Source: Streptomyces dysideae
GTDB lineage: Bacteria > Actinomycetota > Actinomycetes > Streptomycetales > Streptomycetaceae
NCBI RefSeq assembly: GCF_001514305.1
Contig: NZ_KQ949103.1
Coordinates: 62,001-126,000, forward strand
Direction: 5' to 3'
DNA length: 64,000 bases
Part shown: positions 9,749 to 64,000 of the stretch, one piece after another
Position numbering within the stretch: position 1 is the first letter of the stretch
How the letters are laid out: the number at the start of each line of letters is the position of its first letter
Made by a program: the position numbers and the translations under genes
The notes under the pieces: model-generated
The model's input: only the letters and a program-made list of their open reading frames with translations
Databases searched by the model: none
Told to the model about the DNA's origin: nothing

Positions 9749-9779
9749 CACCCGGCGTACGTCCGCTGAACACTGTGAA

Positions 9780-9807
9780 GCCCTCTGCCACTCCGGTGGC
9801 AGGGGGC
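9780..9807 (+). terminator. Rho-independent terminator after filP
   Basis: GCCCTCTGCCAC (9780-9791) pairs with GTGGCAGGGGGC (9796-9807) over 12 positions with one G-U pair and a four-base loop, followed by TTT. It lies 32 bases after the filP stop and before the ABC ATPase gene. Confidence 0.85.
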
Positions 9808-9831
9808 TTTGCCGCGTTCTAGCGTGGCCGC

Positions 9832-10785
9832 ATGATCGAGCTCGAGGGGCTGACCAAGCGGTACGGCGAGAAGGTGGCGGTCAACAACCTCACCTTCACC
9901 GTCAGACCGGGCATTGTCACAGGCTTCCTCGGTCCCAACGGCGCGGGCAAGTCCACCACCATGCGGATGATGCTCGGCCTCGACCGGCCCACCGCCGGGG
10001 ACGTGCGGATCGACGGCAAGCACTACGACCGGCTCAAGGACCCGCTGAAGTACATCGGCGCCCTCCTCGACGCCAAGGCCATGCACGGCGGCCGCAGCGC
10101 CTACAACCACCTGCTGTGCCTCGCGCAGAGCAACGGCATCGCGAAGAAGCGGGTGCACGAGGTCCTCGACACCGTCGGACTCACCGCGGTCGCCCGGAAG
10201 AAGGCCAAGGGGTTCTCGCTGGGCATGGGACAGCGGCTCGGCATCGCGGGCGCCCTGCTCGGTGACCCGCGGATCCTGATGTTCGACGAGCCGGTCAACG
10301 GGCTCGACCCCGAGGGCATCCACTGGATCCGCAATCTCATGAAGTCGCTGGCCGCCCAGGGTCGGACCGTCTTCGTCTCCTCCCACCTCATGAGCGAGAT
10401 GGCACTCACCGCCGAGCACCTCGTCGTCATCGGGCAGGGGCGGCTCCTCGCCGACACCACCATGGCCGACTTCATCGCGCGGAACTCACGCTCGTACGTC
10501 CGGATCCGCACCCCGCAGCGCGAGCGGCTCCTCGACGTGCTGTACGGGGCCGGCATCACCGTCGTACAGACCGGCAGCGGCACGCTCGAGGTCGACGGCG
10601 GCAAGCCCGAGCACATCGGGGAGCTGGCGGCCCAGCACCAGATCGTGCTGCATGAGCTGAGCCCGCAACAGGCCTCGCTGGAGGAGGCGTTCATGCGGCT
10701 GACCGCGGAGTCGGTGGAGTACCACGCACACTCCGACGCGCCTCCGGAGGAGCAGGCGTGGGGCAACGACTGGAGGAGGAGCTGA
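9832..10785 (+). CDS. ABC exporter ATP-binding subunit (first pair)
   Basis: 317-aa ATPase of the ABC-2 exporter class. Walker A is GPNGAGKST near residue 40, the signature is LGMGQRLGIAGALL, and Walker B is ILMFDEPVNGLDP. A C-terminal domain of about 90 residues follows the ATPase core, as in DrrA/BcrA-like subunits. It is followed two bases after its stop by a permease gene. A second, closely similar pair starts at 11694, so the locus looks like a tandem duplication. The substrate is not indicated; such transporters export drugs, lipids or peptides. Confidence 0.9.
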   Translation: MIELEGLTKRYGEKVAVNNLTFTVRPGIVTGFLGPNGAGKSTTMRMMLGLDRPTAGDVRIDGKHYDRLKDPLKYIGALLDAKAMHGGRSAYNHLLCLAQSNGIAKKRVHEVLDTVGLTAVARKKAKGFSLGMGQRLGIAGALLGDPRILMFDEPVNGLDPEGIHWIRNLMKSLAAQGRTVFVSSHLMSEMALTAEHLVVIGQGRLLADTTMADFIARNSRSYVRIRTPQRERLLDVLYGAGITVVQTGSGTLEVDGGKPEHIGELAAQHQIVLHELSPQQASLEEAFMRLTAESVEYHAHSDAPPEEQAWGNDWRRS

Positions 10786-10787
10786 GC

Positions 10788-11558
10788 ATGGCGGCCACCC
10801 AGGTCATCCGTTCCGAGTGGACCAAGATCCGGTCCGTGGCGTCCACGGTGTGGACGCTCTCCCTCGCCGTGATCGTCACCATCGCGCTCGGCATGCTGAT
10901 CTCGGCCCTGTCGAAGAACGAGTTCGACAACATGAGCGCCCGGGACCAGCTCTCCTTCGACCCCACCTTCATCAGTTTCGCCGGCATGAGCCTCGGCCAG
11001 CTCGCGATGATCGTGTTCGGGGTGCTCGTCGTCTCGAACGAGTACAGCACCGGCATGATCCGCACCTCGCTGGCCGCGGTACCGCAGCGCGGCACCTTCC
11101 TGTTCAGCAAGATCGCCGTCGCCACCGGCCTCGCGCTGGCCGTCGGCATGGCCACCAGCTTCGTCACGTTCTTCCTCGGGCAGGCGATGCTCGGCGAGCA
11201 CCGGGCGCAGCTCGGCGACCCGGGCGTGCTGCGGGCGGTGATCGGCGGCGGGCTCTACATGACCCTCATCGCGATGTTCTCGATGGGTGTCGCCGCGATG
11301 CTGCGCTCGCCGATGCTGTCGCTGGGCATCCTGATGCCGTTCTTCTTCCTGGTCTCCAACATCCTCGGCAATGTCTCGGCCACCGAGAAGATCGGCCGCT
11401 ACCTGCCCGACCAGGCCGGCAGCAAGATCATGCAGGTGGTCACGCCTGTCGACGACAGCACGCCGTACGGCCCCTGGGGCGGGCTCGGGATCATGGCGTT
11501 GTGGGTGGTCGCGGCGCTCGCCGGCGGATACGTGCTGCTGAAGCGGCGGGACGCGTAG
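10788..11558 (+). CDS. ABC-2 type permease (first pair)
   Basis: 256-aa membrane protein with about six hydrophobic segments, beginning with VWTLSLAVIVTIALGMLI. The early segment VIRSEWTKIRSVASTVWTL is the characteristic N-terminal motif of this Streptomyces ABC-2 permease family and recurs in the second permease at 13004. The ATG at 10788 follows GGAGGAGG (10773-10780), inside the end of the ATPase gene, so translation is coupled. It forms the membrane channel for the upstream ATPase. Confidence 0.88.
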   Translation: MAATQVIRSEWTKIRSVASTVWTLSLAVIVTIALGMLISALSKNEFDNMSARDQLSFDPTFISFAGMSLGQLAMIVFGVLVVSNEYSTGMIRTSLAAVPQRGTFLFSKIAVATGLALAVGMATSFVTFFLGQAMLGEHRAQLGDPGVLRAVIGGGLYMTLIAMFSMGVAAMLRSPMLSLGILMPFFFLVSNILGNVSATEKIGRYLPDQAGSKIMQVVTPVDDSTPYGPWGGLGIMALWVVAALAGGYVLLKRRDA

Positions 11559-11693
11559 AACTCGCCCTGGCGGCCGTCATCTGGTCGAGACCTTTTACTT
11601 GCTCTTGAGTGGAACCGTCAGTCCACCGATAAGCTCCTAACCCTTACGGGGGCGTGTGCCCCGCTGTCCTGAACCTTGCGATGGGTGCGGAGC

Positions 11694-13007
11694 ATGATCG
11701 AGGCAGTCGGCCTGACCAAGCGCTACGGCGACAAGACCGCTGTGTACAACCTTTCCTTCCAGGTGCGGCCAGGTGCCGTCACCGGCTTCCTGGGCCCCAA
11801 CGGCTCCGGCAAGTCGACGACGATGCGGATGATCCTGGGCCTGGACAACCCCACCTCGGGGCAGGTGACGATCGGCGGCTACCCGTATCGCAAGCTGCCG
11901 AACGCCCCCCGCCAGGTCGGCGCCCTGCTGGACGCCAAGGCGGTGCACGGCGGCCGGGCGGCCCGGAACCACCTGCTGTCGCTGGCCCAGCTGTCCGGCA
12001 TCCCGGCCCGCCGGGTCGACGAGGTGCTCGGCGTCGTGGGCCTGCACGAGGTGGCCAGGAAGCGGTCCAAGGGCTTCTCCCTCGGCATGGGCCAGCGGCT
12101 CGGCATCGCCGCCGCGCTGCTCGGCGACCCGCAGGTGCTGCTGTTCGACGAGCCGGTCAACGGCCTCGACCCCGAGGGCATCCTCTGGGTGCGGAACCTG
12201 ATGAAGTCCCTTGCGTCGGAAGGCCGTACGGTCTTCGTCTCGTCCCACCTCATGAGCGAGATGGCGGTGACCGCCGACCACCTGATCGTCATCGGACGCG
12301 GTCAGCTGCTCGCCGACATGAGCATCAAGGACTTCATCTCGGCGAACTCCGCCGACTTCGCCCGGGTCCGCACCCCCGACACCGAGCCGCAGTTGCGCGA
12401 GAAGCTGTCCGCCGCGCTCACCGAGTCGGGCGGGCACGTCATGCCCGAGCAGGACGGCGCGCTCCGCGTGACCGGGCTGCCGCTGCCCCGGATCAGCGAC
12501 ATCGCGCACGACAGCGACGTACGGCTGTGGGAGCTGTCGCCGCACCAGGCCTCGCTGGAGGAGGCGTACATGCGGATGACGCAGGGCGCCGTCGACTACC
12601 GCTCCACGGTCGACCAGAAGGAAGGCCTGATGCAGCAGCTGCCGCCGGGCGCGCAGCCGCCGATGCCGGTACCCGGCCAGGGCCAGCCCGGCTGGTATGC
12701 CCCGCCGCCGCCCCAGCAGGGCGGCCAGCCGTTCGGGATGCCGCAGGGGCAGCCGATGGCACCGGGACAGCCCGCGCCCCAGGGCCAGCAGGCGCCTCAG
12801 GGGCCCTACGGCGCTCCTGTGTCGCCCGGTGCGGCTCCCGGCGCCCCCGGCGCGGGCGCGCCCAACCCGTACGCCCAGCAGGCGCCCCAAGGCCCGGCTC
12901 AGCCCGCCGCCCAGGCGCCCGCGCAGCCGCCCGCGCCCCCCACCGCCGCCCCCGAGAAGCCCTCCGCCCCCGCAGCCGCCCCGACCACGCCCGAGGACGC
13001 CCGATGA
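11694..13007 (+). CDS. ABC exporter ATP-binding subunit with long Pro/Gln/Gly tail (second pair)
   Basis: 437 aa. The first 300 or so residues are a close paralogue of the ATPase at 9832 (Walker A GPNGSGKST, signature LGMGQRLGIAAALL, Walker B VLLFDEPVNGLDP). From about residue 314 to the end it carries roughly 120 residues rich in Pro, Gln, Gly and Ala (for example PPPQQGGQPFGMPQGQ), absent from the first copy and predicted to be disordered. The ATG at 11694 replaces a longer TTG frame. The stop overlaps the next gene's ATG (ATGA). Confidence 0.88.
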   Translation: MIEAVGLTKRYGDKTAVYNLSFQVRPGAVTGFLGPNGSGKSTTMRMILGLDNPTSGQVTIGGYPYRKLPNAPRQVGALLDAKAVHGGRAARNHLLSLAQLSGIPARRVDEVLGVVGLHEVARKRSKGFSLGMGQRLGIAAALLGDPQVLLFDEPVNGLDPEGILWVRNLMKSLASEGRTVFVSSHLMSEMAVTADHLIVIGRGQLLADMSIKDFISANSADFARVRTPDTEPQLREKLSAALTESGGHVMPEQDGALRVTGLPLPRISDIAHDSDVRLWELSPHQASLEEAYMRMTQGAVDYRSTVDQKEGLMQQLPPGAQPPMPVPGQGQPGWYAPPPPQQGGQPFGMPQGQPMAPGQPAPQGQQAPQGPYGAPVSPGAAPGAPGAGAPNPYAQQAPQGPAQPAAQAPAQPPAPPTAAPEKPSAPAAAPTTPEDAR

Positions 13008-13876
13008 GCACGCCCCAGCCCCCGATGCCGCAGGCCGCCGCACCGAACTGGCAGGCGGCGCCCGGCCCGTCGTACCCCACCTACACCTCGCCGATCCCGG
13101 TGGTGCGCACGCACCTCGGGCACGCGCTCGCCTCGGAGTGGACCAAGATCCGGTCGGTGCGCTCCACGATGTGGACGCTCGGCGTGTTCGTGCTGCTCGT
13201 CGTCGGCATCGGCCTCGGGGCCGCCGCCCTGGTCTCCGCCAACGCCTCGTCGGAGGGCCTCGCGGGCGAGAACCCGCTGTCCTTCGGCTTCTTCGGGCTG
13301 CTGCTCGGCAGCATGTGCATCATGACGCTCGGCGTGCTGACCACCGCCTCGGAGTACGGCACCGGCATGATCCGGACCACGATGACCGCGTGCCCGTCCC
13401 GCGGGCGGGTGCTGACGGCGAAGGCGATCGTGTTCACCACGGTCGCGTTCGTGGTCACGCTGGTGTCGGCCCTGCTCGTCGCCTTCGCCGACGTCGCCAT
13501 GCTGGACGGCGCCAAGGAGCCGTCCGGCGAGGAGTGGCTGAAGGGCACCGTCGGCATCTCGCTCTACATCGCGCTGCTCGGGCTGCTCTCGCTCGTCATC
13601 GGCTCGATCATCCGGCACTCGGCGGGCGCCATCACCATCATGATCGGCGTCCTGCTGGCGCCGCTGGTCATCGCGCTGTTCATGTTCTCGGAGTCCCTGG
13701 CGGACCTGCGCGACGCGCTGTTCGAGTACTCCATCCCGAACCAGCTCAGCGTCTTCTACGCCAACTCCCTCAGCGAGTCCGGCCCGTCCGGCTGGGACCC
13801 GCTGTGGATCATGCTCGGCGTTACGGCCGCCGCGTTCGCGGGCGCCTACGCGCTGCTCGAGCAGCGCGACGTGTGA
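13004..13876 (+). CDS. ABC-2 type permease (second pair)
   Basis: 290-aa membrane protein with about six hydrophobic segments. After a Pro/Gln/Ala-rich cytoplasmic stretch of about 35 residues comes the family motif ASEWTKIRSVRSTMWTLG. It starts inside the stop of the ATPase gene, so the two are translationally coupled and surely form one transporter. Both subunits of this pair have Pro/Gln-rich extensions, unlike the first pair. Only 22 bases separate its stop from the convergent gene at 13899. Confidence 0.87.
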   Translation: MSTPQPPMPQAAAPNWQAAPGPSYPTYTSPIPVVRTHLGHALASEWTKIRSVRSTMWTLGVFVLLVVGIGLGAAALVSANASSEGLAGENPLSFGFFGLLLGSMCIMTLGVLTTASEYGTGMIRTTMTACPSRGRVLTAKAIVFTTVAFVVTLVSALLVAFADVAMLDGAKEPSGEEWLKGTVGISLYIALLGLLSLVIGSIIRHSAGAITIMIGVLLAPLVIALFMFSESLADLRDALFEYSIPNQLSVFYANSLSESGPSGWDPLWIMLGVTAAAFAGAYALLEQRDV

Positions 13877-13898
13877 GTCTCCAGAAACCCCTGAGGCT

Positions 13899-14231
13899 CT
13901 AGAACTTCGGCGCGTTACGGGACCGCTGCACCCGCGTGGTGCGGCGGTCCTTCGCGTTCCAGCACGCCTTGTGCCAGTGCCGGCGGTCGTCGACGCCCGA
14001 GTGCTCCGGCCAGGCCACGACATGCGGCACACCGTCCGGAATCAGCTGCTCGCAGCCGGGACAGCGGTACGCCTTGCCCTGCGCACTCGCACCCGCCACA
14101 TGCCGCACACTCCACGCCTCGCCCTGCCAGTCCTCCATCGACTGCCAGCCGCCGTAGCGGCCGGGACGGTCGTCCTCGCCGCCCCCTCCGGAAGAGCCGG
14201 AACCCTTGGGACGGTTGCGACGCGGGGACAC
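13899..14231 (-). CDS. Small conserved Streptomyces protein with a putative zinc-binding Cys/His cluster
   Basis: 110 aa. The C-terminal half has a CPGC, then HVVAWPEHSG, then HWHKACW, a Cys/His spacing that could bind zinc. The N-terminus is basic and Gly-rich (SPRRNRPKGSGSSGGGGED). Proteins of this kind are often labelled 'ATP/GTP-binding protein' in Streptomyces, but I see no nucleotide-binding motif. The GTG at 14231 follows GAGGTG at a good distance; an upstream GTG at 14243 is less suitable. It faces the ABC permease and diverges from the oxidoreductase gene. Function unknown. Confidence 0.7.
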   Translation of the reverse strand: MSPRRNRPKGSGSSGGGGEDDRPGRYGGWQSMEDWQGEAWSVRHVAGASAQGKAYRCPGCEQLIPDGVPHVVAWPEHSGVDDRRHWHKACWNAKDRRTTRVQRSRNAPKF

Positions 14232-14453
14232 AGGACACCTCACGGGGCTATACAGGAAGCACGGGCTGTGTCCAGCCTACGCGGCACGCACACGGGTACG
14301 CGTAGACAACCAATCCGCACAAGTCCCCCTCCAAGGCGCCTCATTCTGCAGACAATCCGCAAATCTCTCCGCCCGGCCGTGTCCTCGGCACGTGTCAGAC
14401 GGTTATGCCGGGTGGGGGAGCTCCGCGTCGGAGCCAAGGAAGCAGGAAAGCAC

Positions 14454-15482
14454 ATGCGCGTAGGAAGTTTCGTGTTGGCGGCCCAGTTCCCGGGACAGGG
14501 CGAGGGGGAGGCACTGCACCGCGCGGTCCGCTCCGCGGAAGTCGCCGAGGAGGCGGGGCTCGACACAGCCTGGCTGGCCGAGCACCACTTCGTGCCGTAC
14601 GGCACCTGCCCGTCGGCGGTCACGCTGGCCGCGTTACTGCTGGGCCGCACCCGCCGCCTGCGGGTCGGTACGGCGGTCAGCGTGCTGCCCACCGCCCACC
14701 CCGTGACGCTGGGCGAGCAGGCGGCGCTGCTGCACGTCACGTCCGGCGGGCGGTTCTCGCTGGGCGTGGGGCGCGGCGGGCCGTGGGTCGACCTGGAGGT
14801 GTTCGGGTCGGGTCTGGAGGCGTACGAGAAGGGGTTCCCGGAATCACTCGATCTGCTGGTGCGCTGGCTGCGCGAACCCTCGGTCGCGGCCGCCGGAGAG
14901 CGCTTCAGCTTCCGCGAAGTCCCCGTCGTACCGAGGCCGTCGGAGTCCCTGTCGGAGGCGCCGGGCCCCGAGGTCGTCGTCGCGTGCACCTCGCCGTCGA
15001 GTGTGCGGCTGGCCGCCGAGCGCGGACTGCCGATGCTGCTGGGGATGCACGTGGGGGACGAGGAGAAAGCCGAGATGGTCTCCCTGTGGCGGGACCTCGC
15101 ACGCGCCGCCGGGCGCCCGGCGGAGGAGATCCACGGCGCCGCCCATGTCTCGGCCGGCGTCTGCCAGATCGCCGACCGGCGGACGGACGCGGTCGAGACC
15201 CTGGTGAAGGCGATGCCGGGCTGGCTGCGGCAGGGTCTTGAGGCCCATGTGACGGTGGACGGCCGGCAGCGCTCGATGCGGGACCCGGTGGCGTACACCG
15301 AACTGCTCTGCGGACTGCACCCGGTGGGCACCCCGCGACTGTGCGCCGACCGCCTCGCCGCGACGAGCGAGCGCACCGGAATCTCGCGCTTCGCGCTGCT
15401 CGTCGAGGGCTCGGGCGACCTCGCGGCGACCGAGGAGAACGTACGGCGGTTGGGCGCCGAGGTGCTGCCGCACCTGAGTTGA
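14454..15482 (+). CDS. LLM-class (luciferase-like) flavin-dependent oxidoreductase
   Basis: 342-aa TIM-barrel monooxygenase-type protein. Family features include AWLAEHHFVPYGTCPSA near residue 40, RLRVGTAVSVLPTAHPV, and GRFSLGVGRGGPW, which matches the conserved strand near the flavin site. Such enzymes use FMN or F420; the sequence does not say which. The ATG at 14454 follows AGGAAG-type purine-rich sequence. Substrate unknown. It appears monocistronic, divergent from the small Cys/His protein. Confidence 0.85.
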   Translation: MRVGSFVLAAQFPGQGEGEALHRAVRSAEVAEEAGLDTAWLAEHHFVPYGTCPSAVTLAALLLGRTRRLRVGTAVSVLPTAHPVTLGEQAALLHVTSGGRFSLGVGRGGPWVDLEVFGSGLEAYEKGFPESLDLLVRWLREPSVAAAGERFSFREVPVVPRPSESLSEAPGPEVVVACTSPSSVRLAAERGLPMLLGMHVGDEEKAEMVSLWRDLARAAGRPAEEIHGAAHVSAGVCQIADRRTDAVETLVKAMPGWLRQGLEAHVTVDGRQRSMRDPVAYTELLCGLHPVGTPRLCADRLAATSERTGISRFALLVEGSGDLAATEENVRRLGAEVLPHLS

Positions 15483-15568
15483 AGGGCCCGTCCCGCGGGG
15501 AGCTTGCCGCCCCGTACTGATTGCACCTCCCGCGTACGGAGCGGCAAGCGAGCAACTCACTGCGTCAG

Positions 15569-15961
15569 TCAGCAGTCCCTGAACTCCGGAGACTGGTTGA
15601 GCAGCTGACTGCGGACCGAGGTGAAGCGGGTCAGCGTCTCGTCGACCGCTGAGTCCAATGGGAACACCGCCACCCGGTGGCAGTTCTGGAAAGCCAGCCG
15701 CACACCGAAGTGCCGTTGCAGCGCGCCTCGAATCGCGTCACTGGCGAGCGCACGCAGCAGCTGGCCACGCGCCTGCTCGTCCGGCGGGGGCGTCTGGTTG
15801 TCGGCGAACTGACCGCCGTCGACCTTCAGCTGGGCCACCAGGGAGCTGATCATCTCCCATGCGTAGGGCAGGGAGGTCCGGACGCAGTCGACGAATTCAG
15901 CTTCGTCGACCTCGCCTCGCTCGGCCTTCTCGAGTAGGGCCGGTGAGACGTCGAGCGACAT
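15569..15961 (-). CDS. SCO5389-family conserved Streptomyces protein
   Basis: 130-aa soluble protein without signal peptide or membrane segment. It begins MSLDVSPALLEKAERGEVDE and ends with a well-formed motif region (NCHRVAVFPLDSAVDET). The ATG at 15961 is preceded by GAGGAGA in ideal position; longer in-frame starts upstream are not supported. The neighbourhood (nucS next door, divergent) is conserved in Streptomyces. No function can be assigned. Confidence 0.72.
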   Translation of the reverse strand: MSLDVSPALLEKAERGEVDEAEFVDCVRTSLPYAWEMISSLVAQLKVDGGQFADNQTPPPDEQARGQLLRALASDAIRGALQRHFGVRLAFQNCHRVAVFPLDSAVDETLTRFTSVRSQLLNQSPEFRDC

Positions 15962-16273
15962 GGGTTCTCCTCTCGCACCCCCGAACAGCAGGGGTTGCCG
16001 GACAGATAGGGGAGTTCGCGATACCGAACACTCTGCGTACACGCCTCGCGACCTCCCGTTTAATACGGTAAGCAACCGACGGTGACGGCACCAGGAGAAT
16101 GAGTACATAGACGGACCCCGTTGGGCCCACAATCGGCCATCAACGAACACGGGTCGTCCAGGGTCTTACAGAACATTAGGGGCGGCCCGAAGGGCCTCGG
16201 TTGAGGGCGGTGGTGGTGGGAGACGGGTGGGCGAATCGCGTGTACTGCTGCCCGTCGAGTAGCGTTGCCGACC

Positions 16274-16945
16274 ATGCGTCTCGTCATTGCCCGATGCTCC
16301 GTTGACTACGCGGGCCGGCTCACCGCCCACCTCCCGTCGGCCCCCCGTCTGATCCTGGTGAAGGCGGACGGCAGCGTCTCGATCCACGCGGACGACCGGG
16401 CCTACAAGCCCCTGAACTGGATGTCGCCGCCCTGCACGCTGAAGGAGGGCAGCGGCGAGGAAGAGGACGTCTGGACCGTCATCAACAAGGCGGGCGAGAA
16501 GCTCATCATCACGATGGAGGAGATCCTCCACGACTCCTCGCACGAACTCGGCGTGGATCCCGGCCTGATCAAGGACGGCGTGGAAGCGCACCTCCAGGAA
16601 CTGCTCGCCGACCGCATCGAGACCCTCGGCGAGGGCTACACGCTCATCCGCCGCGAGTACATGACGGCCATCGGCCCGGTCGACATCCTGTGCCGGGACG
16701 CGGACGGCCAGACCGTCGCCGTGGAGATCAAGCGGCGCGGCGAGATCGACGGCGTGGAGCAGCTCACCCGCTATCTGGAGCTGCTGAACCGCGATCCCCA
16801 TCTCGCCCCGGTCCGCGGCGTCTTCGCCGCCCAGGAGATCAAGCCGCAGGCCCGGGTCCTCGCGACGGACCGCGGCATCGGCTGCGCGGTCCTGGACTAC
16901 AACGCGCTGCGCGGCATCGAGGACGACAAGCTGCGCCTGTTCTGA
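16274..16945 (+). CDS. nucS: Endonuclease NucS (EndoMS), non-canonical mismatch repair
   Basis: 223-aa mismatch-specific endonuclease that replaces MutS/MutL in most Actinobacteria. The C-terminal nuclease domain has a PD-(D/E)xK core: Asp137 in GPVDILC and Glu151/Lys153 in AVEIKRRG. The extreme C-terminus DKLRLF fits the sliding-clamp-binding tail described for NucS. The N-terminal domain contains the typical [14 protein letters not shown] strand. The ATG at 16274 is chosen over a TTG three codons upstream. It is followed by a bidirectional terminator shared with the convergent P-loop gene. Confidence 0.95.
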
Positions 16946-16955
16946 CCGTTGCAGG

Positions 16956-16989
16956 CTGTTCTACGACAGTGGCTGTTCTACGACAGTGA
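16956..16989 (+). repeat. Tandem 17-base direct repeat after nucS
   Basis: GGCTGTTCTACGACAGT occurs twice head-to-tail with no gap, between the nucS stop and the terminator. It is probably a simple slippage duplication; the copies are identical, so it may be recent. Confidence 0.85.
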
Positions 16990-16990
16990 G

Positions 16991-17021
16991 GGCCGGGTCC
17001 GCGGTGCGGACCCGGCCCTCT
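16991..17021. terminator. Bidirectional terminator between nucS and the P-loop membrane protein
   Basis: AGGGCCGGGTCCGC pairs perfectly over 14 bases with GCGGACCCGGCCCT across a three-base loop. It sits between two convergent genes and can serve both. Confidence 0.85.
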
Positions 17022-17037
17022 TGTCCTGAACGTGGTG

Positions 17038-19560
<2,523 letters not shown>

Positions 19561-19764
19561 AGGTTCAAGCCCCCCAAAAGCGTCGTGTGCCGAGCCCCTC
19601 CCGGCCTTGCTGCACACCGCGCTGTCGCTTCTGGTCCGGGCCCGCTCGAAGGGTTTTGACATCGCGGGCAGCCGAACCCTAAACCTTTGCACAGTATCTA
19701 CGACAGCCCGGGGTACCGCGCCGTCCGAGACGTCACAGTCTCGTGAGGATTGTCGTGCCGGGTG

Positions 19765-20088
19765 TCACACCCGGGGCAGTGACTCCACCCCGATGCCGCC
19801 CTCGATCGCCAGGATCCGGTGCAGGCGGGTGGCCACCAGCAGGCGCTGCATCTGCGGCGGTACGTCGCGCAGCACCAGGCGCCGGCCGCAGCGGCCGGCC
19901 CGTCGGTGGGCCCCCATGATCACACCGAGTCCGGTGGCGTCCCAGGAGTCCAGCTCGGACAGGTCCAGCACCAGATCACCGACTCCGTCGTCGACGGCCG
20001 TGTGCAGGACCGTACGGGCGTCCGCCGCGCTGCGGACGTCGAGGCGGCCCCCGACGACCAGCTCGGCGTGGTCGCCCCTGATGAACAT
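19765..20088 (-). CDS. STAS-domain anti-sigma factor antagonist
   Basis: 107-aa single STAS domain, the fold used to release sigma factors from anti-sigma kinases. The helix carrying the phosphorylation site reads LDSWDATGLGVIM; Thr52 is at the position usually occupied by Ser in DSSGL-type proteins. The ATG at 20088 follows GGGGAG. No anti-sigma factor or sigma gene lies beside it; its partners must be elsewhere. It lies between the P-loop membrane protein and 3-hydroxybutyryl-CoA dehydrogenase on the same strand but with gaps of 150-200 bases, so it probably has its own promoter. Confidence 0.88.
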   Translation of the reverse strand: MFIRGDHAELVVGGRLDVRSAADARTVLHTAVDDGVGDLVLDLSELDSWDATGLGVIMGAHRRAGRCGRRLVLRDVPPQMQRLLVATRLHRILAIEGGIGVESLPRV

Positions 20089-55543: not shown

Positions 55544-55615
55544 GCCCCCGTAGCTCAGGGGATAGAGCAACGGCCTCCGGAGCCGTGTGCGCAGGTTCGA
55601 ATCCTGCCGGGGGCA
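55544..55615 (+). tRNA. tRNA-Arg(CCG)
   Basis: A full cloverleaf can be drawn: acceptor GCCCCCG/CGGGGGC with discriminator A, D stem GCTC/GAGC, anticodon stem ACGGC/GCCGT with loop CTCCGGA (anticodon CCG), and T stem GCAGG/CCTGC with TTCGAAT. CCA is not encoded. Its 3' half is the integration site of the element to the right. Confidence 0.97.
55576..55615 (+). other. Putative attachment site (attL) of the AICE in tRNA-Arg
   Basis: AICE integrases recombine within the 3' part of a tRNA gene and restore it from attP. The tRNA points toward the element, and int lies 1.1 kb away, so the core should lie between the anticodon loop and the 3' end. The exact ends need the matching attR, which is outside the window. 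Confidence 0.6.
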
Positions 55616-55670
55616 CTCGCCAGTCAGCCAGCAAGAATCATGCTCTGACCTGTGCGGATGCCGACATGAG

Positions 55671-56719: not shown

Positions 56720-58183
56720 CTACGCGGCGTCGCCTTCTTCCTCCAAGGCCTTTGCGATCTTCTCGTTGGCCGCTTCCTCGTGCCCGTCGATGCAGCCGTG
56801 GTACCGGCGGTGGATCACCTCAGGGGAGTTGCCGACGCGCCGGGCTACTTCTGCGATCGGGACCCCCGCGTTGAGCCACCGCGTGATGCACGCGTGCCGC
56901 AGGTCGTACGGGCGTCCAGCCAACGGCGAGGCGACACGCTCGGGCGGGAGGGCGAACAGCCGCGCTTCCTCCCACACGCGCCAGTACGTTGACGAACCGA
57001 CGACTCCCCCGCGCTCGTTGCCGAACACCCGCCCCTCCTTGGCGGTCCCGAACTCCTTCAGGTGGGCCCGCAGGATGGCGACCAGAACGGGCGGGATGGG
57101 GACCGGGCGGTCCGTGTCCGCCTCGCGCGCCTTCAGGCCCCGGCGGTCGTGCCGCTCCCCCGAATCCGTCCACTGCTTGCCGGAGACCGGACGCGTCTCC
57201 CGAAGCGTCAGCGTGCCCCAACCCGCCTCCGGCAGGTGGCAGTCAGAGAGCCTCAGCCCGACCGCCTCAGCGGGCCTGAGTCCCGCGTAGTACAGGACCG
57301 CGTAGAAGGCAGCCAGGCGCCGCCCACGGTTGCGGTCCCATGAACCGACGTAGGAAACCGCGGTGAGCAACTGGCGCCCCTGTACGGCGTTCACAAGGAC
57401 GCGTCGGTCCACCACCGCGCCAGAGCCCACACGCTTCTTGTGGGCCCCCTGGAGAGGGTTCTCCGGGAGTTCCTTCACGGCCACTGCGTGTTCGAGGGCC
57501 GTGTTCAGGGCCCGGCGCCGCCGCTTGTGCGTCTCCCCCGCCGCCGGAGTGCCATCCAGTCGATAACTGAGGCGGTACAGCACGTCCTCGAACACCTCAA
57601 CGTCGGTCAGGTCGACAACCGGCCGATCCTCCTTCGTGAGCCACTCGTACGCGGCCTTCAGTTCGGCCGGCGGCTCCTGTCCCGCGTTCGCGGGGACGAT
57701 CGCCCACCGGAACGCCAGGCGCAGGTACTTGTCCTCAGGGGTGTTCTCGCCCCGCTTCACCATGGCCAGCGCCACGGCCGCGAGACCGTCCGCCATGCCC
57801 TCACGGGTCTTGGCGGCGCTCATGCGCCACCGCCCGGCAACGTACTTCCGGCAGAACTCGAACCACCGCAACGACGGCTTGGCCTCAACCGCCGTTGCCG
57901 CCGCCTCTTCCGCCGCGCGGACTTCGGACTCAGGCTGTCCGCTCGCGATCTTGAATGCCTCGCCCCGGCGCATGGCCTGCCGCAACTCCGAGCGTCGGCT
58001 TTCAGCGAGTGCCGACGTGGCGAACGTCGCGCTGCTCACCTTCCCGCCTACGACCCACCGGAGTTGATACGGCCGTGCCTTGCGGTCGACCTTCGTGACC
58101 TTCCACAGCCGGACGTCAAGGGAGTACCCCGACCGGGCCTCCCCGTGCGGGCGGAGAGGCGAGGCGTCATCGGTCGTGCTCAC
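56720..58183 (-). CDS. int: Tyrosine integrase of the AICE
   Basis: 487-aa tyrosine recombinase. Core-binding domain about residues 110-240; catalytic domain after that with Arg in YYAGLRPAEAVGLRLSD, box II as YDLRHACITRWLNAG (Tyr instead of the first His of HxLRH), and the nucleophile Tyr in VIHRRYHGCIDG. The GH preceding the Tyr in most relatives is GN here (RVGNSPEV). The GTG at 58183 overlaps the xis stop (GTGA) with AGGA upstream. It inserts the element in tRNA-Arg. The large size and SAM-like N-domain match integrases of pSAM2/SLP1-type elements. Confidence 0.93.
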   Translation of the reverse strand: MSTTDDASPLRPHGEARSGYSLDVRLWKVTKVDRKARPYQLRWVVGGKVSSATFATSALAESRRSELRQAMRRGEAFKIASGQPESEVRAAEEAAATAVEAKPSLRWFEFCRKYVAGRWRMSAAKTREGMADGLAAVALAMVKRGENTPEDKYLRLAFRWAIVPANAGQEPPAELKAAYEWLTKEDRPVVDLTDVEVFEDVLYRLSYRLDGTPAAGETHKRRRRALNTALEHAVAVKELPENPLQGAHKKRVGSGAVVDRRVLVNAVQGRQLLTAVSYVGSWDRNRGRRLAAFYAVLYYAGLRPAEAVGLRLSDCHLPEAGWGTLTLRETRPVSGKQWTDSGERHDRRGLKAREADTDRPVPIPPVLVAILRAHLKEFGTAKEGRVFGNERGGVVGSSTYWRVWEEARLFALPPERVASPLAGRPYDLRHACITRWLNAGVPIAEVARRVGNSPEVIHRRYHGCIDGHEEAANEKIAKALEEEGDAA

Positions 58184-58374
58184 GCAGCGTCCTCTCGCTC
58201 TGCAAGCCACCGCTCGTATTCTGACCGGCGGATTCGTACGTCACCGTTCGGGAGCTTGATCGAGCGGGGTCCCTTGCCGAGTTGGCGCCACCGGTAGAAC
58301 GTCGACGGGGCCACCTTCAGATCGGTGATGACCTCCGCGACGGTCAACTTCTCGTCCAGCGCGCGGGCGCTCAT
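58180..58374 (-). CDS. xis: Excisionase (helix-turn-helix, MerR-like)
   Basis: 64-aa DNA-binding protein: KLTVAEVITDLKVAPSTFYRWRQLGKGP ... RIRRSEYERWLAE is the typical AlpA/Xis winged-helix pattern. It directs int toward excision. Its ATG overlaps the AAA ATPase stop (ATGA) and its stop overlaps int (GTGA). Confidence 0.88.
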   Translation of the reverse strand: MSARALDEKLTVAEVITDLKVAPSTFYRWRQLGKGPRSIKLPNGDVRIRRSEYERWLAEREDAA

Positions 58375-59528
58375 ACCGCCGTCCCTTCGGCTTCGGTCGA
58401 CCCGGACAGCCCGGACAGCTCCAATTCCGACTGTCCGGGTTGTTCGTGCTGGTCAGATGAGGTAACCGGACAGTCGGACAGTGCGGACACCTCCGGTACG
58501 CCCTGTGTCCGGGTCTCGGTGTCCGGGTAGTACCGGCCGCTGCCGTCCCTGGTGAGCTGTCCGTCAGCGGCCATGCGGGAGCAGGTGCGGCGGATGGTGT
58601 CGATGTCGACCTGCGGAAAGTCGCCCGCGATGTCCTTCGGCTTCGCCCCGGGGTTGGCACGGACGTGCCGCAGGATCGCGGCACGGGTGTCGCCCACGGT
58701 GTGGTCGGCTACCGGGCCGTCCAACAAGTGCCAGGCACCGGAGGCAGATTGGAACTGAAGCGCGTACTCGGCTTCATCCACGTCCCGGCCGGTGACGTGC
58801 AGGATGCCGTCCGCCTGTCCGCGGGCCCGCTTGAGTACGAGGGTGGCGTCCGCGGCGCCCGCGATGCCGTTGGTCCCGGAGACCTCCGTCAGGAAGTCAT
58901 CCGAGCCTGCCTTGCGGACATGGTGGACCAGGACCACGGCGATGCCGTAGTGGTCCGCGAGCCGCTTGGCGTAGCCGACGGAGACGTAATCCGCGTCGTA
59001 CGCGGACACCCCTTGCGGGGCTTGACCGCGCATCTTGGCGAACACGTCGATCACGACCATGCGCGCATCGGGGTTGCGGTCCAACCACTGGGCAATGGCC
59101 TCGGTGCCGCCCTGGGGGAAGGGCGGACATTCGGTGACCAAGGTCAGCCCGGCGGGCGCCAGCTGTCCGCCCAAGAGCTTGCCCATGCGGGTCTGAAGTC
59201 GTCGCGGGGTGTCTTCCAGGGCGAGGTAGAGCACCGGGCCGCCCTGGACGGGCACGGAGTCGAACGCCTGCCCTCCGGCCGCGACCGACAGCCCCAGCCC
59301 GAGGGAGAGCCAGGACTTGCCGACCTTGGGAGGTCCGGCGAGCAGGCTGACGCCTTCGGCGAGGATGCCGGGCACGGCCCATTTCGGCTCCGGGAAGTGC
59401 GCGGCCATGAGCTGATCGGCCGTCCATGCGGTCCGCGGGCGCTCCCGCTTCGGCGCCGCTGCTGCCGGGGGGTGCGGGTCGCTGGGCACGGAGTACAGGT
59501 GCAGGGGCGGAATCGGGTTGGCGCTCAT
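58371..59528 (-). CDS. AAA-type replication ATPase (RepA-like) of the AICE
   Basis: 385 aa. RecA/DnaB-like ATPase core with Walker A AGPPKVGKSWLSLGL near residue 65 and Walker B RMVVIDVFAKM, then VVLVHHVRKAGSDDF. A winged-helix domain follows (about 280-345: ILRHVRANPGAKPKDIAGDF ... CSRMAADGQL), and a Ser/Asp-rich tail ends the protein. With the primase-polymerase upstream it forms the replication pair of RepPP-type AICEs; it probably loads or acts as the helicase. Overlaps both neighbours by ATGA. Confidence 0.85.
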   Translation of the reverse strand: MSANPIPPLHLYSVPSDPHPPAAAAPKRERPRTAWTADQLMAAHFPEPKWAVPGILAEGVSLLAGPPKVGKSWLSLGLGLSVAAGGQAFDSVPVQGGPVLYLALEDTPRRLQTRMGKLLGGQLAPAGLTLVTECPPFPQGGTEAIAQWLDRNPDARMVVIDVFAKMRGQAPQGVSAYDADYVSVGYAKRLADHYGIAVVLVHHVRKAGSDDFLTEVSGTNGIAGAADATLVLKRARGQADGILHVTGRDVDEAEYALQFQSASGAWHLLDGPVADHTVGDTRAAILRHVRANPGAKPKDIAGDFPQVDIDTIRRTCSRMAADGQLTRDGSGRYYPDTETRTQGVPEVSALSDCPVTSSDQHEQPGQSELELSGLSGSTEAEGTAV

Positions 59529-60424
59529 GCCGCGACCGTCCGGGGGCGCCGTGCTCCGGCCCGCAGGCCGGAGGCGATGGTGCGCTCTGCCTCGCGCTCG
59601 CCCTGGCCGACTTGGAGCGCGGCCGGCAGGAGCCAACCGGTGACCTCGTCTTCACTGAGCTCCCCTCCGGCAACGAGCTGTCCGAGAGCGACCGCGGCGA
59701 CGTACAGCGCGTTGTTGTGCTCGTGCGGGCCGGAGCCGGTGACCCGCTCCACCTCCCCGTTGACGGCGGAGCGCAGGAAGGCGGTGCGCCGTCCACGGCC
59801 CGCGAGGGCGACGGTGATGGGGGTCTGCGGGGGCAGCGGGGCGGGGCGCAGGAGTTCGGCGAGCCAGTCCGGCAGGGGCGCCACGGGGGCGTGGTGGGTG
59901 ACCTCGTAGGGGTGTCCGGCGAAGGTGCTGCCCGCGCCGACCACGAGTCCGCCCCACGCGCGGGTGTCGACCTTCCAGCCGAGCCCGCGGACGCTATCCC
60001 CGGCGGTGTTGCGCAGGGGCTCGCCCTCGGGTGCGGCGAAGTACAGGTGTGTGCCGCCGCTCCACGTGCGCACCGTATGGGTGTCGGCGGGGAACGGCTG
60101 GCCGTGCCGCTCGCAGAGCACCGCGAGCACTTCGGCGCCATCGGTGACGCCGTGCTCAGCCCACACGGCCGGCGGGGTGTCGCCGGGGTGCTTGGGCTTG
60201 TCCAGGTCGATGACGACCAGGCCGGAAGGACCGGTGGCGATGCCGATGTTGAAGGCGGCGGTGGACCAGGCGCGGGTGATGCGGTCCGGGTCGGTCGTGG
60301 CGCGGGTCTCCCAGTCGGAGACGGCCGGGCGCTTGTCGCCTGGGATGAGGGGGAAGACGCGCCAGCCACGCGACGCAGCGTCAAGCGCGGCGGTGAGCTG
60401 GGCAGAGCCGTCCGGGTACTGCAT
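59525..60424 (-). CDS. Bifunctional DNA primase-polymerase of the AICE
   Basis: 299-aa archaeo-eukaryotic-type prim-pol. N-terminal ALDAASRGWRVFPLIPGDKRP, catalytic Asp pair in GLVVIDLDKPK, and HTVRTWSGGTHLYFAAPEG are family features. A helical C-terminal part follows (HNNALYVAAVALGQLVAGGELSE), as in PriCT-like modules. The ATG at 60424 has AGGAGAA upstream, but that site is complementary to a nearby sequence (see 60431-60468). It makes primers for rolling or theta replication after excision. Confidence 0.9.
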   Translation of the reverse strand: MQYPDGSAQLTAALDAASRGWRVFPLIPGDKRPAVSDWETRATTDPDRITRAWSTAAFNIGIATGPSGLVVIDLDKPKHPGDTPPAVWAEHGVTDGAEVLAVLCERHGQPFPADTHTVRTWSGGTHLYFAAPEGEPLRNTAGDSVRGLGWKVDTRAWGGLVVGAGSTFAGHPYEVTHHAPVAPLPDWLAELLRPAPLPPQTPITVALAGRGRRTAFLRSAVNGEVERVTGSGPHEHNNALYVAAVALGQLVAGGELSEDEVTGWLLPAALQVGQGEREAERTIASGLRAGARRPRTVAA

Positions 60425-60982: not shown

Positions 60983-61588
60983 TTACTGCTCCTTGCTGGT
61001 CTCGGTGGCGGGGAGTGCGGGCAGTCCCGCGCGTTCCAGGGCGGTGGGGTCGAAGCCGGGCAGTGCGGCGCGGGTGACGAGTGCCTGCGCGAGCTGTTCG
61101 GCGTAGGCGGCGCCGGTGCGGGCCACCTCGATCTGTGTGGTGGCGCGGAGGGTTTCGACGCGCTCGACGTGGGCGTGTTCCTCGCGCCGCTCGCTCGTCT
61201 GCCGTTCGTACGCGACGGTTTCGCGGCGGTCGGTGCGCCAGTAGCGGGCGGCGAGCCCGTAGGCGCCGGCGGTGGCCAGGGACCACAGCAGCAGCGGCAG
61301 CGAGAGCCCGTCGGCGTATCCGGCCACGCCCGCGAAAGCGAGTGCGCCGGAGGCGGCGAACGCGGTTCCGGCGAGCACGGAGTCTCCGGTTGCGTTGCCC
61401 GCGACCACGCCCGCGGCGGCGGCACCGAGGGAGAGCGCGGTCATCAACGCGGCGTTGCCGAGGGAGTGTTCGGCGCCGTTGGCGTTCCAGATCCGGGCCA
61501 GCGCGAGCACGGTCGTGGTGGCCAGGGCGGGCGCGGCCTTGGGCAGTGCGGCGGCGAGCCAGTGGCGGGCAAGGGTGGGGTCGTTCAC
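60983..61588 (-). CDS. Membrane protein of the spread (Spd) type
   Basis: 201 aa with about four hydrophobic segments in the middle (AALMTALSLGAAAAGVVAG, GTAFAASGALAFAGVAGYA, LPLLLWSLATAGAYGLAA), then a charged coiled-coil-like C-terminus (RRETVAYERQTSERREEHAHVERV). Position beside Tra matches the Spd proteins that move Streptomyces elements between hyphal compartments. The GTG at 61588 has GGGAC upstream; the longer frame is spurious. Confidence 0.7.
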   Translation of the reverse strand: MNDPTLARHWLAAALPKAAPALATTTVLALARIWNANGAEHSLGNAALMTALSLGAAAAGVVAGNATGDSVLAGTAFAASGALAFAGVAGYADGLSLPLLLWSLATAGAYGLAARYWRTDRRETVAYERQTSERREEHAHVERVETLRATTQIEVARTGAAYAEQLAQALVTRAALPGFDPTALERAGLPALPATETSKEQ

Positions 61589-61601
61589 GGCGGTTGTCCC
61601 G

Positions 61602-61793
61602 TCAGTCGAAGGAGGCCAGGAAGTCGGCGAAGGAGGCCACCAGGTCGTGGATGGGCCCGTAGGCGCCGGTCCCGGCGGTGAAGAAGCCGAACAGGAACAG
61701 CAGCACTGCGGCGCCCGGACCGCTGGCCCTGGTCTTGACGGCGACGACGGAGGCGGCACCGAGCAGCAGCACGGCGGAGAAGGTGAGGGTCAT
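61602..61793 (-). CDS. Small membrane protein, Spd-like
   Basis: 63 aa with two hydrophobic stretches (LTFSAVLLLGAASVVAV and AAVLLFLFGFFTAGTGAYG). The ATG overlaps the stop of the preceding gene (ATGA), and the next gene follows 13 bases after its end. Small hydrophobic proteins are usual in AICE spread operons. Function inferred from place only. Confidence 0.65.
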   Translation of the reverse strand: MTLTFSAVLLLGAASVVAVKTRASGPGAAVLLFLFGFFTAGTGAYGPIHDLVASFADFLASFD

Positions 61794-62065
61794 CGCGACA
61801 CCCCCGAGCGGGGGGTGTCGGTACCCGCGCGGTAGATACGGGCCCACCGGTTGTAAAGCCAACGGCCGACGCGTATGCGCTTGCCGGTCGCGTGGCAGCG
61901 GCGGCAGTCCTTGCCGCGCTTCATGCGGCCCTTGCGGTCGGTCTTCATGGTGAAGCCCCAGCCGGAGCACTTGCGGCAGTTGCCGAACGGCGAGGCAGCA
62001 CACACAGCGACGTAACACAGCGTTACGCCGACGAGTAGGGTGATAGCGAGCAGGACAGGGGTCAC
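61790..62065 (-). CDS. Small membrane protein with a CxxC/CxxC zinc-knuckle-like motif
   Basis: 91 aa: one N-terminal transmembrane helix (VLLAITLLVGVTLCYVAVCA), then NCRKCSGWGF and DCRRCHATGK, a paired CxxC arrangement like half of a DnaJ zinc finger, and a basic tail (KRIRVGRWLYNRWARIYRAG). It could bind zinc or nucleic acid at the membrane. The GTG at 62065 has GGAGGG seven bases upstream. First gene after the palindrome cluster and so probably first of the spread operon. Confidence 0.7.
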   Translation of the reverse strand: MTPVLLAITLLVGVTLCYVAVCAASPFGNCRKCSGWGFTMKTDRKGRMKRGKDCRRCHATGKRIRVGRWLYNRWARIYRAGTDTPRSGVSR

Positions 62066-62108
62066 GAAGGGCCCTCCGGGGCGGTTTTCAGGGGTTTCCG
62101 CAGGTGGG

Positions 62109-62197
62109 CCGCTATCCGCTAGCGGCCTGATCAAAGCGGGTTTGGGGCGCTAGCGGGGCCGCTAACGTTAGCGGGGTGTGCCGCTAGCGCTAGCGGC
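62109..62197. promoter_or_regulatory. Cluster of nested palindromes between tra and the spread genes
   Basis: Four palindromes built on the half-site CCGCTA: CCGCTAGCGG (62116-62125), CGCTAGCG (62148-62155), CCGCTAACGTTAGCGG (62159-62174) and GCCGCTAGCGCTAGCGGC (62180-62197), plus a lone half-site at 62109. The two largest are perfect. Such an array between tra and the spread operon suggests operators for an element repressor or a transfer locus. Confidence 0.75.
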
Positions 62198-62206
62198 CCC
62201 GGAACC

Positions 62207-64000
62207 TCAGCCCGCGTCCCGGTTTCCGTCACGCTCCGCAATCGCGGCGACGATGTGGGAGCGGTCGATGCCGCGCCGGTTGACGACCTTGCCCTTCACG
62301 CGGCGGCCCACCTGGATGGTGGAGACGCCGTGCGGCTTGAGGGCGGCGGCGAGCCCTTCGGGGTCCCATCCGTCGTAGACGTCCTCGCGCAGGTCGGCGA
62401 GCCGGGCGACGACGGTCTCGGACCACACCTTGGGCTCATCGGCCGGGACGACGGCGAGGATGTCGGCGAGCAGGTCGTAGCCGCTGCCCGCAGCAGGTTC
62501 CGGCTCCTGACCGAGCGCGTAGCCGGACAGGGTCCCGGCTTCCTCGCGTGCCTTGCGGGCCCGCCGCGCGATCCGGTCCGCGTTCGGGGCGTCGACGTAG
62601 ACGCTGCGGATGATCCGGGCGTCCGAGCCGTCGCCGACGAAGTAGGCAATGCCCTTGTCGGCCCAGGCGAACATGGTGGCGCGCACGCCCCTCTTGTAGG
62701 AGGACGTGCCCAGCACCATGTCGTTCTCGGTCTGGCCCATGACCTTCATGCACAGCCGCACGCCGGCGTTCGCAGAGATGCCCGTGGGCAGCGACTTCGC
62801 GTCGGGCCGCTGAGTGGCCAGCATCAGCACGATCCCAGTGGCCGGTCCGCGCTTGACCAGGTCGGTGCAGATCTCCTCGAACTCCTTGCCGTACTTGTCG
62901 TGCTCGAACCACACCTGGCACTCGTCCACGCAGATGACGATGGGGTGCAGTCCCAGACTCGGCTTGGAGGCAAGGTCGCTGGTCACCTTGGACTCCGGGC
63001 AGATGTCCCGCGGCAGCGAGCGGATCACCTTCGCGCGGCGCCGCAGCTCGCCACGCACCTCGCGCATGTCGGCGATGGCGTACTCGATGTCCTCGTCTTC
63101 CTCCCCGGCACGATGCCGGTAGGAGACGTGCTCGCCGACCGGGTCCAGGTCGCCGGTGCCCTTCAGGTCGTAGGTGTGCAGCTCCGCACGCGGGTCCAAC
63201 GCTGCGATCAGCGCGAACAGACGCAGCAGGAACGTCTTGCCCATACGCGGGATCGCACCGATGATCGCCGCGATGTACATGAACGTCAGGCCCACCCAGC
63301 GGCCCCGCTGGTCGGTGGAGAAGTCGACCGGCTTGAACAGGTCGACCAAACCGGACTTGGCCAGCGACCACGCAGGCTGCTTGGCCCGGTTCATGTCCTG
63401 ATCGCCCACCCACAGCACCAGGCGCCCGGTGTGCTCATCGGCCACCGCCTCCGGCCACACACAGCCCAGCGGGCGGCGCAGGCCGGACGCGAGCCGCTCA
63501 CGCCGCTCGATGATGTCCGTCACGGTCACGCCGTAGGGCAGGTTGCCCTCCGCACGCCAGCCGGGCCCGTCCCGGGTGATCGGGGCGGTGAACTCGAACC
63601 CGTCCCGCCCCTTGCCCTGCGCCTGATTGATCGCGGGAATGCCGAGCGAGCCGAGCGCACGCAGCACGATGTCACTGGTGAGCTTGACCGCCGTAGGCAG
63701 TTCCACCGCACGGTGGATGACCGGGTCATCCGCACGGCGGCCGGCAGCCCCGAGTGCCATCACGACCGCACCCACCGACAGGGCCTGAAGCCAGTCGGGG
63801 GCGAGCACGTAGATGGCGAGCGCGGAACCGAGCCCGATGAACATCGCGAGCACGGTCACGAGGGTGCGCATGCGGACCCGCCCGTCGCGCTGCCGCGACA
63901 GCTTCAGGTACTCCGCCGCGTCCTCACGCCGGACCGCGGCGAGCCGGACCGGCTCACCCTCGCGGTCGGCCACCCACCGCACCGTGCCGCCCACGAACTT
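62207..64000 (-). CDS. FtsK/SpoIIIE-type conjugative translocase Tra (5' end off the window)
   Basis: At least 595 residues. Two N-terminal hydrophobic segments (TLVTVLAMFIGLGSALAIYV and ALSVGAVVMALGAAG), then the motor domain with Walker A IGAIPRMGKTFLLRLF and Walker B PIVICVDECQVWFE, and VLMLATQRPDAKSLPTG. The C-terminal part (AAALKPHGVSTIQVGRRV ... RSHIVAAIAE) looks like the winged-helix DNA-recognition domain of TraB. It pumps double-stranded DNA between mycelia. An in-frame GTG at 63994 exists, but the frame is open to the edge and the true start may be outside. Confidence 0.9.
   Translation of the reverse strand, partial: KFVGGTVRWVADREGEPVRLAAVRREDAAEYLKLSRQRDGRVRMRTLVTVLAMFIGLGSALAIYVLAPDWLQALSVGAVVMALGAAGRRADDPVIHRAVELPTAVKLTSDIVLRALGSLGIPAINQAQGKGRDGFEFTAPITRDGPGWRAEGNLPYGVTVTDIIERRERLASGLRRPLGCVWPEAVADEHTGRLVLWVGDQDMNRAKQPAWSLAKSGLVDLFKPVDFSTDQRGRWVGLTFMYIAAIIGAIPRMGKTFLLRLFALIAALDPRAELHTYDLKGTGDLDPVGEHVSYRHRAGEEDEDIEYAIADMREVRGELRRRAKVIRSLPRDICPESKVTSDLASKPSLGLHPIVICVDECQVWFEHDKYGKEFEEICTDLVKRGPATGIVLMLATQRPDAKSLPTGISANAGVRLCMKVMGQTENDMVLGTSSYKRGVRATMFAWADKGIAYFVGDGSDARIIRSVYVDAPNADRIARRARKAREEAGTLSGYALGQEPEPAAGSGYDLLADILAVVPADEPKVWSETVVARLADLREDVYDGWDPEGLAAALKPHGVSTIQVGRRVKGKVVNRRGIDRSHIVAAIAERDGNRDAG

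Follow-up and report, generated by a model that had tools for sequence, protein, structure and literature searches.

What is the role of a cluster of palindromes that lies between two genes of an integrated Streptomyces element? The window, i.e. the whole 64-kb stretch of S. dysideae DNA that was analyzed, contains four perfect palindromes of 8, 10, 16 and 18 bp that have a half-site in common and are packed at positions 62116–62197. This arrangement was correctly described by the original prediction, which offered two functions, a multi-site operator for an element repressor or a new transfer locus. The evidence supports the latter, as the array is beside traB and its class tracks the TraB C-terminal domain. 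Judged from sequence, the array is probably (roughly 0.87) the TraB loading site (clt) of this TraB family, palindromic rather than tandem and with a natural recognition code.

The palindrome array

The palindromes and the sites S1–S4 are as follows.

62116–62125, palindrome CCGCTAGCGG, 10 bp, perfect
62148–62155, palindrome CGCTAGCG, 8 bp, perfect; site S3
62159–62174, palindrome CCGCTAACGTTAGCGG, 16 bp, perfect
62180–62197, palindrome GCCGCTAGCGCTAGCGGC, 18 bp, perfect
62183–62194, site S1, dyad GCTAGCGCTAGC, core of the 18-bp palindrome
62161–62172, site S2, dyad GCTAACGTTAGC, core of the 16-bp palindrome, 22 bp from S1
62111–62123, site S4, GCTATCCGCTAGC, dyad with a 5-bp centre

The half-site CCGCTA is found eight times within 88 bp, four times on each strand (plus strand, 62109, 62116, 62159 and 62181; minus strand, 62120, 62151, 62169 and 62191). 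The window has 18 half-sites in total and its densest 90 bp holds 8; 100 dinucleotide shuffles of the window give a mean of 20 half-sites, with only 1–3 in the densest 90 bp. Palindromes of at least 16 bp are not rare as such, there being nine in the window; it is the clustering and the half-site held in common that are distinctive. All four copies of CGCTAGCG in the window are inside the array. In the 10.77-Mb genome the double dyad GCTAN4TAGC-N10-GCTAN4TAGC is present once, i.e. as the array (reversed control 0), and CCGCTANCGNTAGCGG twice, both in the array (reversed control 4). The single dyad GCTAN4TAGC is present three times, two of them in the array (reversed control 343). Active avoidance of GCTAN4TAGC by the chromosome is unsupported, as 2.8 copies are expected from the GCTA and TAGC frequencies in the window.

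The array had been placed before the spread operon. A small open reading frame does come after it and is plausibly the start of such an operon, but the position is more exactly described as immediately 3′ of traB, at a distance of 12 bp. The order on the coding strand is traB stop, 12 bp, S1, S2, S3, a TGATCAG box, S4 (which reads GCTAGCGGATAGC on this strand) and the small ORF, with 43 bp between the last half-site and the likely small-ORF start (62065). A conserved block, ACCTGCGGAAACCCC on the coding strand, is located at 62091–62105 between S4 and the small-ORF start; ACCTGC recurs behind traB in several distant loci (CTGACCTGCAAGGT).

The host element and its genes

The array resides in an actinomycete integrative conjugative element (AICE) of approximately 18.7 kb at tRNA-Arg, which displays tRNA attachment repeats, an integrase, a replication gene and an FtsK-like tra gene.

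55575–55618, plus strand, 44-bp attachment repeat, in the 3′ half of tRNA-Arg(CCG) (55544–55616)
Contig position equal to window 74317, beyond the window, second copy of the 44-bp repeat
56720–58210, minus strand, tyrosine integrase (PF00589, 6.7e-06, 26.4 bits, just under the cut-off of 27.1)
59525–60424, minus strand, Prim-Pol replication gene (PF09250, 7.2e-45)
61790–62065, minus strand, first gene that follows the array, a small ORF whose N terminus has a hydrophobic stretch and which carries CxxCxG-type motifs
62207–64000 and on to the contig position equal to window 64447, minus strand, traB, 746 aa, FtsK/SpoIIIE-type DNA translocase

The TraB sequence has no Pfam match at 0.01, and its NCBIfam matches are weak and far below cut-off (EccCa, 9.2e-08; plasmid_TraB, 5.5e-05). 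Its relatives carry the annotation FtsK, and the name TraB rests on these relatives together with the NCBIfam matches. The same element has, outside the window, an open reading frame with a PycTM (Pycsar effector) domain (E-value = 6.8e-13, at 12970–13419 of the fetched locus L002), upstream of traB and adjoining a DUF2637 gene.

Conservation of the array behind traB

Within the genus, 117 of 295 genomes contain TraB matches (E-value ≤ 1e-30), a count that includes distant TraB groups with other arrays. Altogether 132 loci were read: 129 among the matches listed, two plasmid-collection records and the locus of the window itself. A search of other AICEs had been proposed as a check, and the array is indeed kept in related AICEs: a GCTA-type array lies directly behind traB in 114 of the 132 loci (own locus included), and all 114 have the small ORF (by tblastn, weakest E-value 4e-4). 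The common layout is two GCTA-N4-TAGC dyads, mostly 22 bp apart, followed by two further sites. Of the 110 loci that have two scored sites, 106 show an S1–S2 distance of 22 bp, and the first scored site starts 12 bp past the traB stop in 74 of the 114. The distance from the traB stop to the small-ORF start is 124–154 bp. Loose patterns, which miss some true sites, match S3 in 154, S4 in 156 and the TGATCAG box in 127 of 174 rows.

The GCTA and TAGC arms are nearly invariant, and the dyad centres of the 114 loci, four of which were classed from one site, form five classes.

Class W, GCTAG[GA], 47 loci
Class R, GCTA[AG]C, 32 loci
Class C, GCTACC, 25 loci
Class K, TCTA start, 6 loci
Class T, GCTATC, 4 loci

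No small ORF was matched in 18 of the 132 loci, and the class counts exclude these (L107, L108, L113, L122, L123–L134, L135 and L044). All but the last two belong to more distant TraB groups (16 loci), and 12 of these display different repeated words behind traB: GGTTTC in L107, L108, L113 and L122 (at least three copies in all four) and CCTCTAC in L123–L134 (at least three times in 8 of 12). Thus repeat arrays behind traB may be general across TraB groups. A Pseudonocardia broussonetiae plasmid (L251) shows CCTGACC eight times just after traB.

Covariation of TraB residues with the array class

Information on the array class was computed column by column for the TraB alignment, which covered the last 720 aa, and for the small ORF. 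Amino acid position 721 of TraB, a valine in the S. dysideae protein, holds 96% of the class information, and an inserted position after 713 holds 81%. Other columns within positions 701–726 reach up to 0.57, background maxima are 0.46 (positions 40–640) and 0.47 (positions 641–700), and positions 727–746, whose coding DNA is nearest the array, hold at most 0.41. The small ORF shows no strong covariation with class, its best column holding 0.43. Thirty free label shuffles give at most 0.25.

The class changes about 19 times on a FastTree phylogeny of the TraB motor part alone. Phylogenetically independent pairs (same/opposite/no difference) are 7/0/0 for W, 4/0/0 for C, 4/0/0 for T and a median of 8/0/2 for R; these pairs are not blind, as the residue groups were set from the same covariation scan, and only W and R have p < 0.05, the C and T pairs being too few for significance by themselves. 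In distant clades, CCGG sites are paired with wings that differ at position 721, one having Q and the other R.

At the level of single bases (174 rows; the half-sites are related and hence the counts are not independent) the covariation is tight. Residue 721 corresponds to base 5 as follows: F with T (22/22), G with G (232/232), Q with C (52/52), R with C (79/80), V with A, G or T (222/222) and T with G or A (47/48). Where a W is inserted after position 713, base 6 is G or A (236/236), and where the insert is lacking it is C (357/358). At position 725, a threonine accompanies T as the first base in 9/9 rows, and rows in which this residue is R or K have fewer than two T there (164/164). In most classes the cores of S3 and S4 remain GCTAGC-like, and these two sites follow the code less clearly than S1 and S2. 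At position 6 the L221 array shows all four bases, unlike the W-class arrays of the 174 rows, which have G or A.

Predicted structure of the TraB C-terminal domain

AlphaFold modeling of TraB positions 632–746 with an alignment of 73 sequences gives a mean pLDDT of 81.9, with 80 of the 115 residues at 90 or above. The predicted fold consists of helices and a beta-hairpin with strands at positions 711–717 and 720–728, thus positions 713, 721 and 725 are all in or at the hairpin. The C-terminal domain is predicted to be a winged helix with V721 in the beta-wing. The PDB structures matched are, for the most part, generic winged helices of diverse types, with Z no higher than 6.5; scores of this size may arise from nothing more than a common arrangement, and FtsK gamma is absent among the structural matches listed. 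Foldseek shows no match at E ≤ 0.001, the domain has no PDB sequence match at E ≤ 1, and phage records have no TraB relatives at 1e-10.

Loci outside the first set

A second set comprised 80 loci from named genomes; 20 repeat TraB ends of the first set. The residue-to-class mapping of the first set, applied to the remaining 60 loci, which are often close relatives, was right in 57 and wrong in none. Three rows were unscored: L174 (with V) and L169 (with P, a residue also seen in L094 of the first set) agree with the mapping by eye, and L204 (Streptomyces philanthi) has lost S1 and S2 with S3 and S4 kept just after traB, possibly by a deletion between repeats.

A search of 394 genomes of the taxonomic class by DNA pattern alone gave 31 places in 25 genomes and in 7 of 137 genera; the reversed control pattern gave no match in the same 394 genomes. 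The window's own array and six second places in a genome were set aside, and the other 24 were read. TraB is directly 5′ of the array, at +2 to +18, in 21 of the 24. Six of the 24 loci repeat TraB genes of the first set, and 15 of the 21 TraB loci are new with respect to it; all of these fit base 5 by eye. L223 shows a single weak TraB-like stretch by tblastn (60 aa, E-value 0.083).

Inverted, displaced and orphan arrays

In pPaSha2 of Pseudonocardia alni the array is inverted and is found behind the small ORF instead of before it. The wing residue is R and the dyad is GCTACATGTAGC, which matches the prediction at base 5 (by eye). The array of L044 was read in L207, a longer stretch of a record with the same TraB end; it is displaced by about 0.9 kb from traB and is still of the predicted class.

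Three of the 24 pattern-found arrays (L243, L244 and L245) are orphans with no adjacent TraB, and an HMM search gave no small-ORF match for any of them. L243 is a 10.2-kb integrative element (9726–19965) with a 49-bp repeat at tRNA-Gly and the array at 9977; it encodes a tyrosine integrase, an HTH_17 protein and a Prim-Pol, and its array is full by eye. No TraB relative is found in this genome at E ≤ 1e-10. The L244 array (around 10028) is near a Lactococcin_972-type ORF and between two repeats of about 1.1 kb, one copy with a transposase gene; no TraB was found in the genome. The L245 array (around 9985) is beside a serine recombinase and an Mrr-type (Mrr_cat) nuclease. Its genome has four TraB relatives, and their fetched loci display no GCTA-N4-TAGC array. 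A matching helper TraB was not found in the three orphan genomes. The orphan arrays could belong to elements that borrow the TraB of another element, L243 being a candidate for an element moved in trans; decayed former AICEs are the plain alternative.

Alternative explanations

S1 and S2 are nearly reverse complements of each other, thus a transcript running from traB into the small ORF could fold, and the inverted pair might act as an RNA hairpin, i.e. a terminator, attenuator or processing site. The region does fold, at –60 kcal/mol (z = –4.97), an energy that 200 shuffles never reached, and among 140 distinct segments the mirror pairing of S1 with S2 is 97%–99% for both of the innermost centre pairs and 85% for the first flank outside them. 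However, one centre pair (columns 16–35) has a C-A or A-A mismatch in 36 of the 140 segments, the centre bases track a residue of a DNA-binding-type domain of TraB, and the array also occurs inverted behind the small ORF, displaced from traB and as orphans. No promoter-like or terminator-like site (a hairpin followed by a T run) is found in 61500–62700, and Rfam gives no match at gathering score in 61900–62500. A hairpin function is very unlikely.

An operator array that controls the spread operon, bound by an element repressor or by the small zinc-motif protein in an autoregulation of the SpdA/sps type, is suggested by the palindromes, which are usual repressor sites, and by the position before the small ORF in all 114 loci where the array is directly behind traB. 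SpdA2 of pIJ101 binds a 12-bp palindrome (PMC4170104). The operator of the original prediction is nevertheless unsupported, because the array class follows the TraB C-terminal domain and not the small protein (0.96 at TraB 721 versus 0.43 for the best small-ORF column, the small ORF being the sole regulator candidate covered by this comparison), and because of the placement in pPaSha2, behind the small ORF, and in L207, and the three orphans without adjacent traB or small-ORF match. An operator array of this kind is highly improbable.

That the array and the traB 3′ end were swapped together by recombination without functional contact is hardly credible: the two are 12 bp apart and classes jump between TraB clades, but the low class information at positions 727–746, nearer the array than 721, argues against mere linkage, as do the two different wings with which CCGG is reached, the lack of any wrong call among the 57 scored predictions and the persistence of the link in L207 and L250, where the array is displaced or inverted.

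The array as a probable TraB loading site

Two features of a clt are found: position beside the tra gene (114 of 132 loci, and 21 of 24 by pattern alone) and several copies of a motif (four sites, eight half-sites). Binding by TraB through its winged helix, a further feature, may be reflected in the covariation with residues 721 and 725 and the insert after 713 and in the predicted fold; as to a need in cis for transfer, the orphan array of a TraB-less element is suggestive at most. The proposed mechanism is that TraB C-terminal domains bind GCTA half-sites in pairs. The predicted beta-hairpin wing would read the variable bases, residue 721 base 5, the insert after 713 base 6 and residue 725 base 1, and this reading would decide which DNA a given TraB moves. 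Because S1 and S2 are each dyads and are also mirrored with respect to one another, loading would be non-directional, so that two hexamers may load facing opposite ways. Points that speak against the reading are the looser fit of S3 and S4 to the code, the near reverse complementarity of S1 and S2, the recognition helix reported for pSVH1, the loss of S1 and S2 in L204 and the deviating base 6 of L221. The array had been set apart from the tandem TraB recognition repeats; it is indeed non-tandem, yet TraB remains its likely binder.

Comparison with known systems

A search of open papers found no description of the array. The clt/TRS of Streptomyces plasmids (pSVH1, pJV1, pIJ101, pWTY27) is a multi-copy motif at or near tra that is bound by Tra and varies between plasmids (PMC3583192), and the array is likewise a multi-copy short motif beside tra. 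It differs in consisting of mirrored GCTA-N4-TAGC dyads at 22-bp spacing, whereas plasmid clt are mainly direct repeats, although inverted repeats are also described for pIJ101, pJV1 and pWTY27. The pSVH1 TRS is GACCCGGA (PMC5133688), and this 8-mer is absent from both strands of 62100–62206. Recognition by pSVH1 TraB is reported to be in helix alpha3 and not in the wing (according to the citing papers PMC3583192 and PMC10191066), while specificity in the present family maps to the predicted wing.

TcpK of pCW3 is a conjugation winged-helix protein that reads oriT boxes mainly around its beta-wing (PMC6137059). Reading of transfer-locus DNA around the beta-wing of a winged-helix protein is the point of likeness, the role of the wing in TraB being predicted; unlike TraB, TcpK belongs to the relaxosome as an accessory protein that binds tandem 9-mers and is not a DNA pump. 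Foldseek gives weak matches to TcpK with oriT DNA (5vfx and 5vfy chains, E = 0.06–0.41).

The sps sites of SpdA (pIJ101, pJV1) are, like the array, multi-copy palindromes, of 12 bp, in Streptomyces plasmids (PMC4170104). They are mostly inside spdA and match its SRDD/E motif, and their removal from pIJ303 left transfer unaffected (PMC4170104). GCTA-N4-TAGC cannot encode SRDD/E in any frame (by inspection, sps being known by description), and the array follows TraB and can lie behind the small ORF.

KOPS is the loading sequence for FtsK, a related pump, and acts through the C-terminal winged helix of FtsK; the array is similarly proposed to be a loading sequence read by a C-terminal winged helix. 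KOPS has a direction, is not a palindrome and is dispersed over the chromosome, whereas the array is one compact palindromic cluster per element.

Significance

For a large TraB family the array offers a candidate clt, and the residue-to-base code gives predictions that are testable by single-residue swaps. If this reading is right, mobile elements could be sorted into transfer-compatibility groups, and elements that borrow a pump could be detected. There is perhaps an even chance that actinobacterial AICEs fall into clt compatibility groups set by the wing code, and that TraB-less elements with orphan arrays are moved by any class-matching TraB. If so, which element can hijack which would be readable from sequence.
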